Source of the DNA: Bacteroidales bacterium
GTDB lineage: Bacteria > Bacteroidota > Bacteroidia > Bacteroidales > VadinHA17
Length of the DNA stretch: 64,000 nt
Direction: 5' to 3'
NCBI GenBank assembly: GCA_011620595.1
Contig: WOYX01000037.1
Span: forward strand, 55,440 to 119,439
The notes beneath the pieces were generated by a model, which had not been told where the DNA came from, ran no database searches, and saw only the letters and a list, made by a program, of their open reading frames with translations. Positions 48,977-54,269 of the stretch are shown in pieces; position 1 is the first letter of the stretch; each line of letters opens with the position of its first letter. Both the position numbers and the translations under genes were made by a program.

Positions 48977-49443
48977 TACCAGCGGCTGTAGGGTTTGACT
49001 GAGAGGGCAGAGTTGTAGTACCTCGGGTCACCGGAGACCTCGTCTCCCAGCCACGGTGGTTTCTCAAAGGCCTCATCCGCCGAGCCCAGCTCTATCTCCG
49101 CCATCACAAGTCCGCTGTTCGCCCCGTGAAAAACATCAACCTCAATGATATGACCTCCGTGAGGAACCAGGTAACGTGTCTTCTCGACCGGCCATGGTTC
49201 GCATAGCTTAAGAAGCTCCAGGGCGTCTTCAACGGGTATCTCCTTCTCCCACTCATACCTGGCAACTCCCGACTCATCTGCAAGACCCTTGACCGTAATA
49301 TAACCCTTCTCTCCACGGACGCGCACCCTCACTGTTCTGCCAGGCAAAGAAGAGAGGTACCCCTGAATGATATCCGTCGCTTCTATGGCCTGATCCATGA
49401 ATTCGCCACAGACAAGAAATTTTCTTTCAATCTCGATTGACAT
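48976..49443 (-). CDS. CYTH domain protein
   Basis: MSIEIERKFLV start (49443) with EIERKFL motif, IQGYLSS, RVRVRGEKGYITVK, YEWEKEIP, EVDVFHG, MAEIEL; N-terminal extension in ORF track rejected. Confidence 0.92.
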   Translation of the reverse strand: MSIEIERKFLVCGEFMDQAIEATDIIQGYLSSLPGRTVRVRVRGEKGYITVKGLADESGVARYEWEKEIPVEDALELLKLCEPWPVEKTRYLVPHGGHIIEVDVFHGANSGLVMAEIELGSADEAFEKPPWLGDEVSGDPRYYNSALSVKPYSRW

Positions 49444-49544
49444 AATATTGAAATAAAGATAAGCCTTAAGATTAAGAAAGAAAGGATCATGATTTTTTTT
49501 CTTTTCTGTTTTTATTCTGATTTTTGTGTACTTTAGCGTCCGAA

Positions 49545-49619
49545 ATGATGAGAACATACGCAGCATACAGTCTTTCTTTTTACTTTTTCTATTACCATCC
49601 GGAAAGAGGGGCTGAATAG
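49545..49619 (+). CDS. Aromatic leader peptide MMRTYAAYSLSFYFFYYHPERGAE
   Basis: 24-codon ORF with 5 Tyr and 3 Phe including six consecutive aromatic codons (FYFFYY), upstream of an intrinsic terminator and the aromatic amino-acid operon. Confidence 0.75.
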   Translation: MMRTYAAYSLSFYFFYYHPERGAE

Positions 49620-49659
49620 TTGTATATCTGTGTAAGAGAACAAGAAATATAATGAAGGC

Positions 49660-49686
49660 AGTCCCGCTAAAGCGGGACTTTTTTTT
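49660..49686 (+). terminator. Attenuator terminator hairpin upstream of aromatic amino-acid operon
   Basis: AGTCCCGCT-AA-AGCGGGACT followed by T-tract, ending only ~9 bp before the aminotransferase ATG. Confidence 0.85.
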
Positions 49687-49694
49687 ATATAAAG

Positions 49695-50888
49695 ATGAAG
49701 AGTGAACTTATTCACCCTGCGAGACGCCTTAAACATGTTGAGGAGTACTACTTCTCGACCAAGTTGGACGAGATAGCGCGCATGAGGCAGCAGGGCATCG
49801 ATGTCATCAACCTCGGGATCGGCAGTCCTGATATGCCCCCGGCGGCCGATGTAATTGAGGAACTTGGGCGAAGTGCGTCTGACAGCTGCAACCACGGCTA
49901 CCAGGCTTACAGGGGCATAGCCGCACTGAGAAACGCTTTTGCATCGTGGTACATGCGATATTTCAAAGTGGAACTTGATCCCGGGACCGAGATACTTCCG
50001 CTGATGGGCTCCAAGGAAGGAATAATGCACATCAGCATGGCCTTTCTCGATCCGGGTGATGAGGTGCTGGTGCCTGACCCCGGCTACCCTGCCTATGGCG
50101 CCGCAGCAAAGCTGGCAGGTGGCACTGTCAGGCCTTACGATCTCACTGAAGATAACAGATGGATGCCTGACATTAATGCCATTGAGGCCGCAGGGGTGGA
50201 GAGGGTGAAGATGATGTGGATCAACTATCCCCACATGCCAACCGGGGCCCGAGCCACACCTGAACTCTTTGAACGACTGGTCTCCTTTGCCCGCAGGAAC
50301 GGCATACTGTTATGCCACGATAATCCGTACACCTTCATTCTGAACAGTGATCACCTCAGCCTGCTCTCAGTGCCTGGAGCCTTCGACGTATCGCTGGAGC
50401 TGAACTCTCTCAGCAAGTCGCATAACATGGCAGGCTGGAGGATGGGCATGGTTGCCGGCAACAGTTCGTTCCTAAATGATATTCTGAAGTTCAAAAGCAA
50501 CATGGACTCCGGCATGTTCCTTCCATTGCAGGCTGCAGCCGCCAGGGCTTTGGCTGCCCCTGACGGGTGGTATGAAGATCTCAACGAAATCTATCGCCGG
50601 CGCCGCTCTATTGCCGCGGAGATAATGAAATCCCTCTCATGTAGTTTTGACATGGACCAATCAGGGCTCTTCCTATGGGGGAGAATCCCGCCTCTTTATT
50701 CGGATGCAGTTGAAATGACCGAAAAACTGCTCCATGAAAGCCATCTTTTTATTACGCCGGGGTTAGTTTTCGGTGAAAATGGAAAGAGATTCATCAGGAT
50801 ATCCCTCTGCGCAGATGAGAGGCTGCTCATTGCGGCACTGGAACGGGTGAAATCAAAGAAAACCATAACAGATAACCAAACAGCTTAA
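49695..50888 (+). CDS. Class I/II PLP-dependent aminotransferase
   Basis: INLGIGSPDMPPA; YPHMPTGA; NSLSKSHNMAGWRMGMVAG. Confidence 0.92.
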   Translation: MKSELIHPARRLKHVEEYYFSTKLDEIARMRQQGIDVINLGIGSPDMPPAADVIEELGRSASDSCNHGYQAYRGIAALRNAFASWYMRYFKVELDPGTEILPLMGSKEGIMHISMAFLDPGDEVLVPDPGYPAYGAAAKLAGGTVRPYDLTEDNRWMPDINAIEAAGVERVKMMWINYPHMPTGARATPELFERLVSFARRNGILLCHDNPYTFILNSDHLSLLSVPGAFDVSLELNSLSKSHNMAGWRMGMVAGNSSFLNDILKFKSNMDSGMFLPLQAAAARALAAPDGWYEDLNEIYRRRRSIAAEIMKSLSCSFDMDQSGLFLWGRIPPLYSDAVEMTEKLLHESHLFITPGLVFGENGKRFIRISLCADERLLIAALERVKSKKTITDNQTA

Positions 50889-50894
50889 ATTCAG

Positions 50895-51749
50895 ATGTCT
50901 GCAAATATATGTATAGTAGGGCTGGGTCTCATTGGAGGTTCGCTGGCACGAAGCCTGAGGCTCAACGGTTTCTCCGGAAGGATAACAGGTGTGGAGAATA
51001 ATTCGCATCACTGCACCATAGCCATGTACCGTGGTCTGGCAGATGAGTTTCTGCCACTGGACGAGGCTGTTGACAAGTCGGATATCATTATTCTCTGTGC
51101 ACCCGTGGATGTAAATTGCCAGCTCCTGCCCCATATACTTGATTTGATTCATAATACTTCTAAGGTTGTTACCGATATGGGATCGACAAAGTCGGACATT
51201 GCTGCCGTGGCGGCATCGCACCCGGCACGGGGCAGGTATGTATCGGCCCACCCCATGGCTGGCACCGAGCACTCCGGCCCGGCAGCAGCCCTTGACAGAC
51301 TTTTCTTCGACAAAGTGGCCATCATATGTGACCCGGGGAGCAGCGACACGGATGCGCTGGAGCTGATAACTGCCCTGTTCCAGTCGCTCAACATGCATAT
51401 CCTCCATATGAAGTCATCGGACCATGATGTGCACGTGGCATATGTGTCGCACATCTCGCATATAACCTCCTTTGCCCTTGCCCTGTGCGTCCTGGAAAAG
51501 GAGAAAAACGCCGAGAATATCATGGCTCTTGCTGCAGGCGGATTTGAGAGCACCGTGCGACTGTCAAAGAGCAGCGGTGATACCTGGGCTCCGATCTTTC
51601 TCGGGAATTCGGGCCCTATTCTTGAAGTAATAGATACTTATCTGGAAAAGATGCGTCTCTTCAGGGCACATATTGAAAATGGCAACGGTGATGCCCTTAA
51701 AGAGCTTATGCGCTCTGCGAACGAGATAGGCCAGATACTGAAAACCTGA
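50895..51749 (+). CDS. tyrA: Prephenate dehydrogenase
   Basis: ICIVGLGLIGGSLARSLRLNGF; VTDMGSTKSDI; AHPMAGTEHSGP; HISHITSFALA. Confidence 0.93.
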   Translation: MSANICIVGLGLIGGSLARSLRLNGFSGRITGVENNSHHCTIAMYRGLADEFLPLDEAVDKSDIIILCAPVDVNCQLLPHILDLIHNTSKVVTDMGSTKSDIAAVAASHPARGRYVSAHPMAGTEHSGPAAALDRLFFDKVAIICDPGSSDTDALELITALFQSLNMHILHMKSSDHDVHVAYVSHISHITSFALALCVLEKEKNAENIMALAAGGFESTVRLSKSSGDTWAPIFLGNSGPILEVIDTYLEKMRLFRAHIENGNGDALKELMRSANEIGQILKT

Positions 51750-51852: not shown

Positions 51853-52968
51853 ATGAGCACGGATATCACAACATATGCCAAGAGGAGACTGAATATCATT
51901 CCGATGGAGGAGTGGCCCCTTTACAAACAGCGCCCACTGCTTATTGCCGGGCCGTGCAGTGCAGAGAGCGAGGAGCAGGTGATGAACACTGCCGCCGCAC
52001 TGGCAGCCACGGGCAGGGTTGACCTCTTCCGTGCCGGCATCTGGAAACCGCGGACGCGTCCTGACAAGTTTGAAGGCGTGGGTACCGTCGGGCTCAGGTG
52101 GCTCCGGCAGGCGAGAGAGGTTTACGGACTACCAGTCTCGGTGGAGGTTGCCACAGAGAAACACGTCTATGAGGCACTGAAGCACAGTGTCGACGCTGTA
52201 TGGATAGGAGCACGTACAAGCGTCAATCCGTTTGCACTTAACGAGATAGCATCTGCTCTAAAGGGATCCGACGTGATGGTATTCATAAAGAACCCTGTCA
52301 ACCCTGACCTGGAACTGTGGATAGGGGCTGTGGAGCGCATCAGCAAGGCCGGAATCACACGCCTGGCAGCTATCCACCGCGGTTTCTCAACATGGGAGAA
52401 GTGCGTCTTCCGCAACCAGCCCCGGTGGCAGATACCGGTGGAACTGCGCCAGCGCATACCTGATCTGCCGATGATCTGCGATCCGAGTCATATGGGCGGC
52501 GACAGATCGTTCATCGGCGATCTGTCGCAGAAAGCTATGGACCTGAACTACGACGGACTGATGATTGAGTCGCACATCGACCCGGCAAGTGCACTGAGCG
52601 ACAGGAAGCAGCAGGTCACACCGTCGGAGCTGACCGAAATTATAGGCAATCTGGTGCTGAGATCACCAACATCGGATGACCCGGAGTTCCTCGAGCCCAT
52701 CGAGGACCTGCGCAGTCAGATTGATGTATACGATAACCTGCTGCTGGACATCCTGGAGAGCCGTATGCAGGTAGCAGAGACAATAGGAAGGTACAAGAAA
52801 GAACATAATATAACCATCCTTCAGAGCACAAGATGGAAGGAGGTAAAGGACAATGCGGTGGACAAGGGAGTAAGAAAAGGGCTGACGCCCGAGTTTATTC
52901 AGATCTTCCTGGAGGCGATACACCAGGAATCGATCACACACCAGATGAAAGTGATGAAAGAAGATTAA
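51853..52968 (+). CDS. Bifunctional DAHP synthase / chorismate mutase
   Basis: LIAGPCSAESEEQV; RAGIWKPRTRPDKFEGVG; CDPSHMGGDRSFI; C-terminal CM domain DLRSQIDVYDNLLLDILESRMQVAETIGRYKKEHNI. Confidence 0.94.
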   Translation: MSTDITTYAKRRLNIIPMEEWPLYKQRPLLIAGPCSAESEEQVMNTAAALAATGRVDLFRAGIWKPRTRPDKFEGVGTVGLRWLRQAREVYGLPVSVEVATEKHVYEALKHSVDAVWIGARTSVNPFALNEIASALKGSDVMVFIKNPVNPDLELWIGAVERISKAGITRLAAIHRGFSTWEKCVFRNQPRWQIPVELRQRIPDLPMICDPSHMGGDRSFIGDLSQKAMDLNYDGLMIESHIDPASALSDRKQQVTPSELTEIIGNLVLRSPTSDDPEFLEPIEDLRSQIDVYDNLLLDILESRMQVAETIGRYKKEHNITILQSTRWKEVKDNAVDKGVRKGLTPEFIQIFLEAIHQESITHQMKVMKED

Positions 52969-53015: not shown

Positions 53016-54269
53016 ATGGAGGTTACCGTTCATCCGTCGCGAATGGCGGGCAGCATTATAGCTCCACCTAGCAAAAGTCTGACGCAGAGGGCCATAGCTG
53101 CCGGCATGCTGGCCCGGGGTACCACCTTTATACGAAATCCTTCATTCTGCAACGATTCCCTGGCGGCCATCGGGATAGCCGGGAGACTGGGCGCTTCTGT
53201 ATCATGGGATAATAATTCCATTACCATCATAGGGGGTTCCGGTGCTCTCTCTCCGGTCACTCTCAATTGCGGAGAGTCAGGACTGGCACTGAGAATGTTT
53301 GCCCCTGTGGCAGCCATGCTCGCAGACCGGGTGACCCTTACCGGCGAGGGATCACTGGCAGGGAGACCGGTGACAATGATAAGCGAGGCTCTGCCGCAGT
53401 TTGGGGTGCAAATACAATCCACAGCCGGATTGTTGCCTCTCTCCATGACGGGAAGGCTCTCCGCCGGGAAAGCCGTATTGGATGGTTCCCAGGGCTCACA
53501 ACTGCTGACAGGCTTACTGATGTCACTGCCGTTGCTTGAGTCAGACAGTGAGATTACGGTTGAGAACCTGAAGAGCAGACCCTACATAATGATGACGCTT
53601 CAGCTTCTTGAGGAATTTGGAGTCAGCGTTGTAAACGACAGCTTCAGGCACTTCAATGTACCGGGCTGCCAGTCATACCGTGCCCGCGAATACACTGTTG
53701 AGGGCGACTGGAGCGGGGCATCATTCCTGCTTGTCGCGGGAGCGCTGGCAGGTGCAGTGACGGTGAAAAGCCTCAACCTCAGCAGTCTGCAGGCCGACAG
53801 TGCAATTATCAAGGCGCTGGATGATGCCGGCTGCCGGCTTTCGGAAGAGGCTGCAGGGGTGAAGGCTGAGAAGTCTGACCTTAGGGCTTTTGTATTTGAT
53901 GCCACCGATTCACCGGACCTCTTTCCGCCGCTGGCAGCGTTGGCAGCATTCTGCAGCGGCACCAGCAGGATCAGTGGCGTGAATCGGCTGCGGCATAAGG
54001 AGAGCGACAGGGCAAAAGCCATTGCCGATCTGCTTGGCGCAATGAATATAGAAGTGAAGATTGCCGGTGACGAGATGCTTATCAGCGGTGGACGGGTATT
54101 GCGTGCCAGGGTATCATCACACAACGACCATCGTATGGCAATGATGGCGGCAGTGATGGCCCTGGCAGCTGAAGGGACGGTAACGATAGCCGGAGCAGAA
54201 GCGGTGGCGAAGTCATATCCGGGCTTTTTTGATGACCTGGCCCGTCTCGGCGCAAGGATTTCCCGATGA
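53016..54269 (+). CDS. aroA: 3-phosphoshikimate 1-carboxyvinyltransferase (EPSP synthase)
   Basis: APPSKSLTQRAIAAGMLARG; LNCGESGLALRMFAPVAA; LDGSQGSQLLTGLLMSLPL; NRLRHKESDRAKAIADLL; SHNDHRMAMM. Confidence 0.94.
   Translation: MEVTVHPSRMAGSIIAPPSKSLTQRAIAAGMLARGTTFIRNPSFCNDSLAAIGIAGRLGASVSWDNNSITIIGGSGALSPVTLNCGESGLALRMFAPVAAMLADRVTLTGEGSLAGRPVTMISEALPQFGVQIQSTAGLLPLSMTGRLSAGKAVLDGSQGSQLLTGLLMSLPLLESDSEITVENLKSRPYIMMTLQLLEEFGVSVVNDSFRHFNVPGCQSYRAREYTVEGDWSGASFLLVAGALAGAVTVKSLNLSSLQADSAIIKALDDAGCRLSEEAAGVKAEKSDLRAFVFDATDSPDLFPPLAALAAFCSGTSRISGVNRLRHKESDRAKAIADLLGAMNIEVKIAGDEMLISGGRVLRARVSSHNDHRMAMMAAVMALAAEGTVTIAGAEAVAKSYPGFFDDLARLGARISR

Follow-up and report, generated by a model that had tools for sequence, protein, structure and literature searches.

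Ribosome-mediated attenuation is known mainly from the Proteobacteria and Actinobacteria, and translation in the Bacteroidia proceeds largely without Shine–Dalgarno sequences. The sequence upstream of an aromatic amino acid operon in the 64 kb stretch of Bacteroidales DNA analysed here (hereafter the window) very probably encodes a device of the trp/phe type, a ribosome-mediated transcription attenuator that would sense charged tRNA-Tyr and tRNA-Phe. With the Escherichia coli trpL–trp attenuator (PMC1183508) it would share stall codons, mutually exclusive 2:3 and 3:4 helices and a race between ribosome and polymerase, the differences being that Tyr and Phe replace Trp, that segment 2 is situated inside or just past the ORF, and that a pause hairpin is unsupported. 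An aromatic-rich leader peptide, an intrinsic terminator and a Phe-biosynthesis operon are found also in E. coli pheL–pheA (Rfam RF01859), and the likeness extends to the position of pheA as first gene in most Bacteroidia relatives; unlike pheL–pheA, however, the Bacteroidia leaders mix Tyr and Phe codons, precede operons of different content and have no conserved 1:2 hairpin. Two short ORFs within one leader, as in several Bacteroidia, are described in the available portion of a report on the Salmonella mgtCBR leader (PMC3641672), although the window contains a single unit and both units of the Bacteroidia tandem arrangements are aromatic amino acid sensors.

Within the phylum itself the prior art is thin, and leader-peptide attenuation in the Bacteroidia has hardly been described before. 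A transcriptome study of Flavobacterium psychrophilum mentions 'strong clues' for attenuation by leader peptides ahead of amino acid operons, together with an uncharacterized conserved element upstream of pheA that gives no Rfam hits (PMC9723704). This element is of the same phylum and precedes the same pathway gene as the device considered here, but in the available portion of that report it is not tied to a given leader peptide, no pairing is shown for it and its conservation is noted in the Flavobacteriaceae only. A transcript map of Bacteroides thetaiotaomicron mentions, in general terms, sORFs that resemble leader peptides (PMC7366714), and a 2010 survey of premature terminators lists leader peptides in Proteobacteria, Actinobacteria and Firmicutes, with Bacteroidota unmentioned in its main text (PMC2965389). 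The literature searched yielded no account of how these leaders are distributed in the class, of their footprint spacing or of the Tyr/Phe tuning described below; some of the leaders may be predicted in the comparative attenuation study of Lopatovskaya et al. (2010). The present leaders would extend classic ribosome-mediated attenuation to most of the Bacteroidia, a major class of bacteria from the gut and the environment.

The leader ORF, which is unannotated in this DNA, occupies positions 49545–49619 on the forward strand, as do the other elements and genes of the locus, and encodes MMRTYAAYSLSFYFFYYHPERGAE followed by a stop codon. It is located in the gap of about 250 bp that reaches to the upstream neighbour, a divergent CYTH-domain gene starting at about 49443. 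There are in-frame ATGs at 49545 and 49548 and the stop codon is TAG (49617–49619), giving 24 codons of which eight are aromatic; six of these form the uninterrupted regulatory run FYFFYY (TTT TAC TTT TTC TAT TAC; 49578–49595), identified by direct reading and genus alignment. No other run of at least six F, Y or W residues occurs in the six frames of the 64 kb window, and a density of seven aromatics in ten residues is attained by one other short ORF, on the minus strand. The first regulated gene encodes a class I/II aminotransferase (49695–50888; PF00155, Aminotran_1_2), and is followed by tyrA, encoding prephenate dehydrogenase (50895–51749; PF02153 and PF20463), a gene for a DAHP synthase fused to a type II chorismate mutase (51853–52968; PF00793 and PF01817), and aroA, encoding EPSP synthase (53016–54269; PF00275). 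The initial annotation had named this operon aminotransferase–tyrA–aroF/CM–aroA, and the Pfam matches bear out those gene identities.

Between the leader ORF and the operon is an intrinsic terminator (49660–49686), AGTCCCGCT-AA-AGCGGGACT plus T8 with the stem AGTCCCGC/GCGGGACT, which is recognizable by direct reading, by folding and in the genus alignment. Its T-run ends about 8–9 nt before the aminotransferase ATG at 49695 and, since the upstream gene is divergent, on this strand it has no gene upstream to terminate. The 5′ arm of the antiterminator, segment 2 (GGGGCTG; 49608–49614), falls within the final part of the leader ORF, beginning 12 nt past the last aromatic codon and finishing just before the stop codon, and can pair with the 3′ arm, segment 3 (CAGTCCC; 49659–49665), which overlaps the left arm of the terminator. 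The positions that the initial annotation had given for the ORF, FYFFYY, both of these arms and the terminator are all correct on direct reading, and the pairing of GGGGCTG with the terminator left arm, also claimed there, is borne out by the slid-register, shuffle and swap controls given below. In computed folds of the window the terminator hairpin has a free energy of −14.0 kcal/mol and the antiterminator duplex one of −13.4 kcal/mol. Of these two structures the terminator is the more stable once the leader is complete, so that the choice between them would be a kinetic one, as it is in attenuators already known. Stalling at any one of the six aromatic codons would leave 49608–49614 free of the ribosome; with the stall at the last of them and the terminator right arm still unmade, the downstream RNA folds as the antiterminator (−20.5 kcal/mol, computed), whereas with the ribosome at the stop codon the terminator is the sole fold remaining.

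These features suggest the following course of events. RNA polymerase would start just upstream of 49545, and a ribosome would follow it, translating the leader. When Tyr or Phe is short the ribosome is predicted to stall within 49578–49595 and leave 49608–49614 exposed, and pairing of this segment with 49659–49665 would then block the terminator and allow the operon to be transcribed. When both amino acids are plentiful the ribosome would reach the stop codon and cover 49608–49614, the hairpin at 49660–49679 would form, and transcription would end at the T-run before the aminotransferase gene. The ORF, the terminator and the alternative pairing exist, are conserved across the Bacteroidia and are spaced for a stalled ribosome; transcription and translation of the leader, stalling, and read-through upon starvation are what this arrangement of sequence predicts.

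Within the genus, the comparison is based on 15 aligned sequences, one of which, a near-identical copy, is binned in a neighbouring genus. The six regulatory codons are aromatic in 84 of the 90 cells of this alignment, while TTT/TTC interchange with TAT/TAC, and synonymously. The terminator stem is paired in 117/120 cells, and its basal pair changes from A–T to G–C; the antiterminator is paired in 91/105 cells, against 34–63/105 when the register is slid by 1–3 nt. The C-terminal leader residues RG(T/A)E are also kept, probably because, to judge from the genus alignments, their codons form the antiterminator arm. The initial annotation had proposed an alignment of the intergenic regions of relatives, and had named beforehand a lack of conservation of the aromatic frame as a point against it; the frame is kept in the genus, family, order and class, and the alternative helices recur, with turnover of their sequence. 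Across the class, neither the stem sequences nor the position of the stop codon is kept, and the peptide changes everywhere but in its aromatic cluster.

Class-wide, segment 2 and the terminator arm pair with a mean of −13.9 kcal/mol compared with −7.4 kcal/mol for shuffled spacers (p≤0.05 in 79 % of cases), and since both duplex and terminator were chosen by optimization it is only the comparison with controls that carries weight. Own pairing partners are better than those taken from other genomes (Wilcoxon p=6.6×10−24), with 44 % of own pairings beating 95 % of swaps in a test that is softened by the CCC/GGG cores shared by many arms. The distance from the last aromatic codon to the start of segment 2 has a median of 12 nt (interquartile range 10–15, sd 3.5, against a null sd of 14), whereas that from segment 2 to the stop codon ranges from about −32 to +3; the tight spacing to the one and the loose spacing to the other indicate that the position of segment 2 is set by the stall codons and not by the end of the ORF. 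With the last aromatic codon in the ribosomal A site, a spacing of 12 nt falls just past the downstream edge of the ribosome footprint, and the placement of segment 2 fits a stalled ribosome.

The distribution of the leader was examined in the regions upstream of the orthologous operon in 152 genomes or copies, with DNA and protein searches of relatives. An aromatic-cluster leader ORF followed by a hairpin and T-run is present in 127 of these 152 regions. If seven regions truncated by contig ends are removed and twelve clear leaders that fall below the terminator or aromatic threshold are added, leaders are found in about 139 of the 145 regions that include sufficient upstream DNA; six genomes having enough upstream sequence contain none. 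Stricter thresholds give leader ORF plus terminator in 121/143 Bacteroidia upstream regions, whereas in the same search neither the minus strand nor locally shuffled DNA yields any (0/143 each), which excludes chance as the origin of the leader in the window. Among named genomes the leader is present at 58 of 80 loci, including those of Bacteroides fragilis, B. nordii, B. xylanisolvens XB1A and Phocaeicola vulgatus ATCC 8482, and it is found also in Dysgonomonas, Chitinophaga and Hymenobacter mucosus; the nearest named relatives by aminotransferase sequence are unclassified Bacteroidales and Lentimicrobium MAGs. Since attenuation works only if the ribosome keeps pace with the polymerase, these leaders offer a direct genetic test of coupling, and those of B. 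fragilis and P. vulgatus in particular could serve as a test bed for transcription–translation coupling in the Bacteroidota. Several loci (L063, L064, L072, L085, L100, L116, L131, L144 and L145, and likewise L146, L148, L149, L150, L164 and L175) contain tandem attenuators: the same operon is preceded by a series of two aromatic leader ORFs, sometimes both Tyr-rich, and each of them is followed by a separate terminator.

Other explanations of these features have to be weighed. A functional small peptide as the product of the short ORF, together with a terminator that acts constitutively, seems highly improbable: the ORF and its in-frame start are indeed kept in the genus, but F and Y swap freely there, the peptide outside the aromatic run turns over completely between genera, the position of segment 2 tracks the aromatic codons, and a constitutive terminator would have little point about 9 nt from the operon, where no upstream gene needs terminating. 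Control that is mainly translational, with the terminator-like hairpin blocking the ribosome at the aminotransferase start and the antiterminator freeing it, has in its favour that the T-run in the window finishes 8 nt before the ATG. Most relatives, however, have a strong T-run after the hairpin, and its distance from the first gene varies; this is characteristic of transcription termination, and we regard translational control as improbable, if slightly less so than the other alternatives.

The alternative pairing of terminator and antiterminator would be compatible also with a riboswitch, a T-box or an RNA-binding protein reading the leader, the ORF being incidental. This is very unlikely, since only about 40 nt of RNA separate the ORF from the terminator, no aptamer-like core is conserved across genera, no Rfam family reaches its cut-off in this region of the window or in 15 named loci, and the aromatic codons and Tyr/Phe tuning would be left without explanation. 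In the whole window the Rfam matches at gathering score are confined to tRNAs and a cobalamin riboswitch, with no T-box among them, the riboswitch being located at positions 482–693 (RF00174, 97 bits). The Rfam Phe_leader model (RF01859) gives a full-length match of 42.2 bits in the window and 30–41 bits in relatives. Membership in this family was rejected, the window score being below the gathering cut-off of 55 bits and the fit containing many non-standard pairs; no match exceeds the cut-off in the 15 named loci, and the sub-threshold match is best read as a resemblance of parts. None of the Rfam models captures the Bacteroidia aromatic leaders at cut-off. Attenuation controlled by a leader peptide, the interpretation made in the initial annotation, is strongly supported on comparative grounds, by class conservation, by the pairing controls and by the spacing of the stall codons.

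One component of the classic attenuators lacks support across the class. The window sequence permits a 1:2 hairpin, but class-wide it is not above shuffles (14 % of cases at p≤0.05), and a conserved 1:2 pause hairpin as part of the device is thus unsupported. This lack of support leaves the synchronization of ribosome and polymerase without explanation; it has to come either from early loading of the ribosome or from a pause that has escaped notice. In this context we note a putative −7 promoter element, TACTTTAG (49529–49536), which ends 8 nt before the leader ATG and in which TA and TTT are kept in 15/15 aligned genus sequences. It is close to the Bacteroidota −7 consensus TAnnTTTG (PMC7366714). 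In 87/126 genomes an exact copy of this consensus is present no more than 90 nt ahead of the first leader, and in other genera such a copy is commonly 18–32 nt upstream of the leader. An alternative −7 box, GATTTTTG, ends 18 nt before the ATG; it is less conserved in the genus than TACTTTAG and would be the poorer candidate. If TACTTTAG is used, it is conceivable, though rather doubtful, that the leader in this genus is near-leaderless, that the ribosome loads without a Shine–Dalgarno sequence, and that early loading itself synchronizes ribosome and polymerase; attenuation would then directly show transcription–translation coupling in the Bacteroidia.

The identity of the leader codons follows the product of the operon. 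The fraction Tyr/(Tyr+Phe) is 0.67 in leaders of operons that begin with the aminotransferase gene and lack pheA, and 0.43 in those of pheA-first operons (p=2.4×10−11), and the difference persists with lineage means (11 vs 47; p=3.4×10−6), which control for relatedness only partly. Such a shift in codon balance upon loss of pheA constitutes a natural experiment on sensor specificity. Tyr enrichment is not universal among genus members without pheA in the operon, G007 and G017 being mixed. In most relatives pheA is placed between terminator and aminotransferase, and most genus members have a prephenate dehydratase, usually encoded in this operon immediately past the terminator and in some cases downstream of a leuB-like gene. 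The latter is the case in G006, G007, G017 and G020, in which pheA is relocated to a site directly behind the leuB-like gene (L182–L185), outside the aromatic operon; no separate Phe leader is seen before the relocated pheA in these four genomes. In the genome of the window, which is 96.5 % complete, no prephenate dehydratase (PF00800) was found, so that the operon here should make Tyr and not Phe; the leader nevertheless retains Phe codons. HisG (PF01634) and TrpE (TIGR00564) likewise have no match in this genome (G000), and the organism is possibly auxotrophic for Phe, His and Trp, or else there are gaps in the assembly.

Comparison of window positions 49400–49700 with L010 and L011 reveals a mosaic relationship. 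The leader is nearest to that of G014, with which it is 90–94 % identical, whereas the flanking genes are nearest to those of G006, to which the flanks are mostly 86–100 % identical and the leader only 67–79 %; this discordance is a sign of leader-cassette exchange and suggests that the cassette may have been exchanged by recombination. Finally, and further in favour of the attenuator reading, trpE homologues in other Bacteroidales (L192, L193 and L194) are preceded by a like arrangement, in which short ORFs with WWW runs (NWWWHHY and NIWWWQSL, with two such ORFs in tandem in L194) are followed by terminator-like hairpins, and these are probable trp attenuators.
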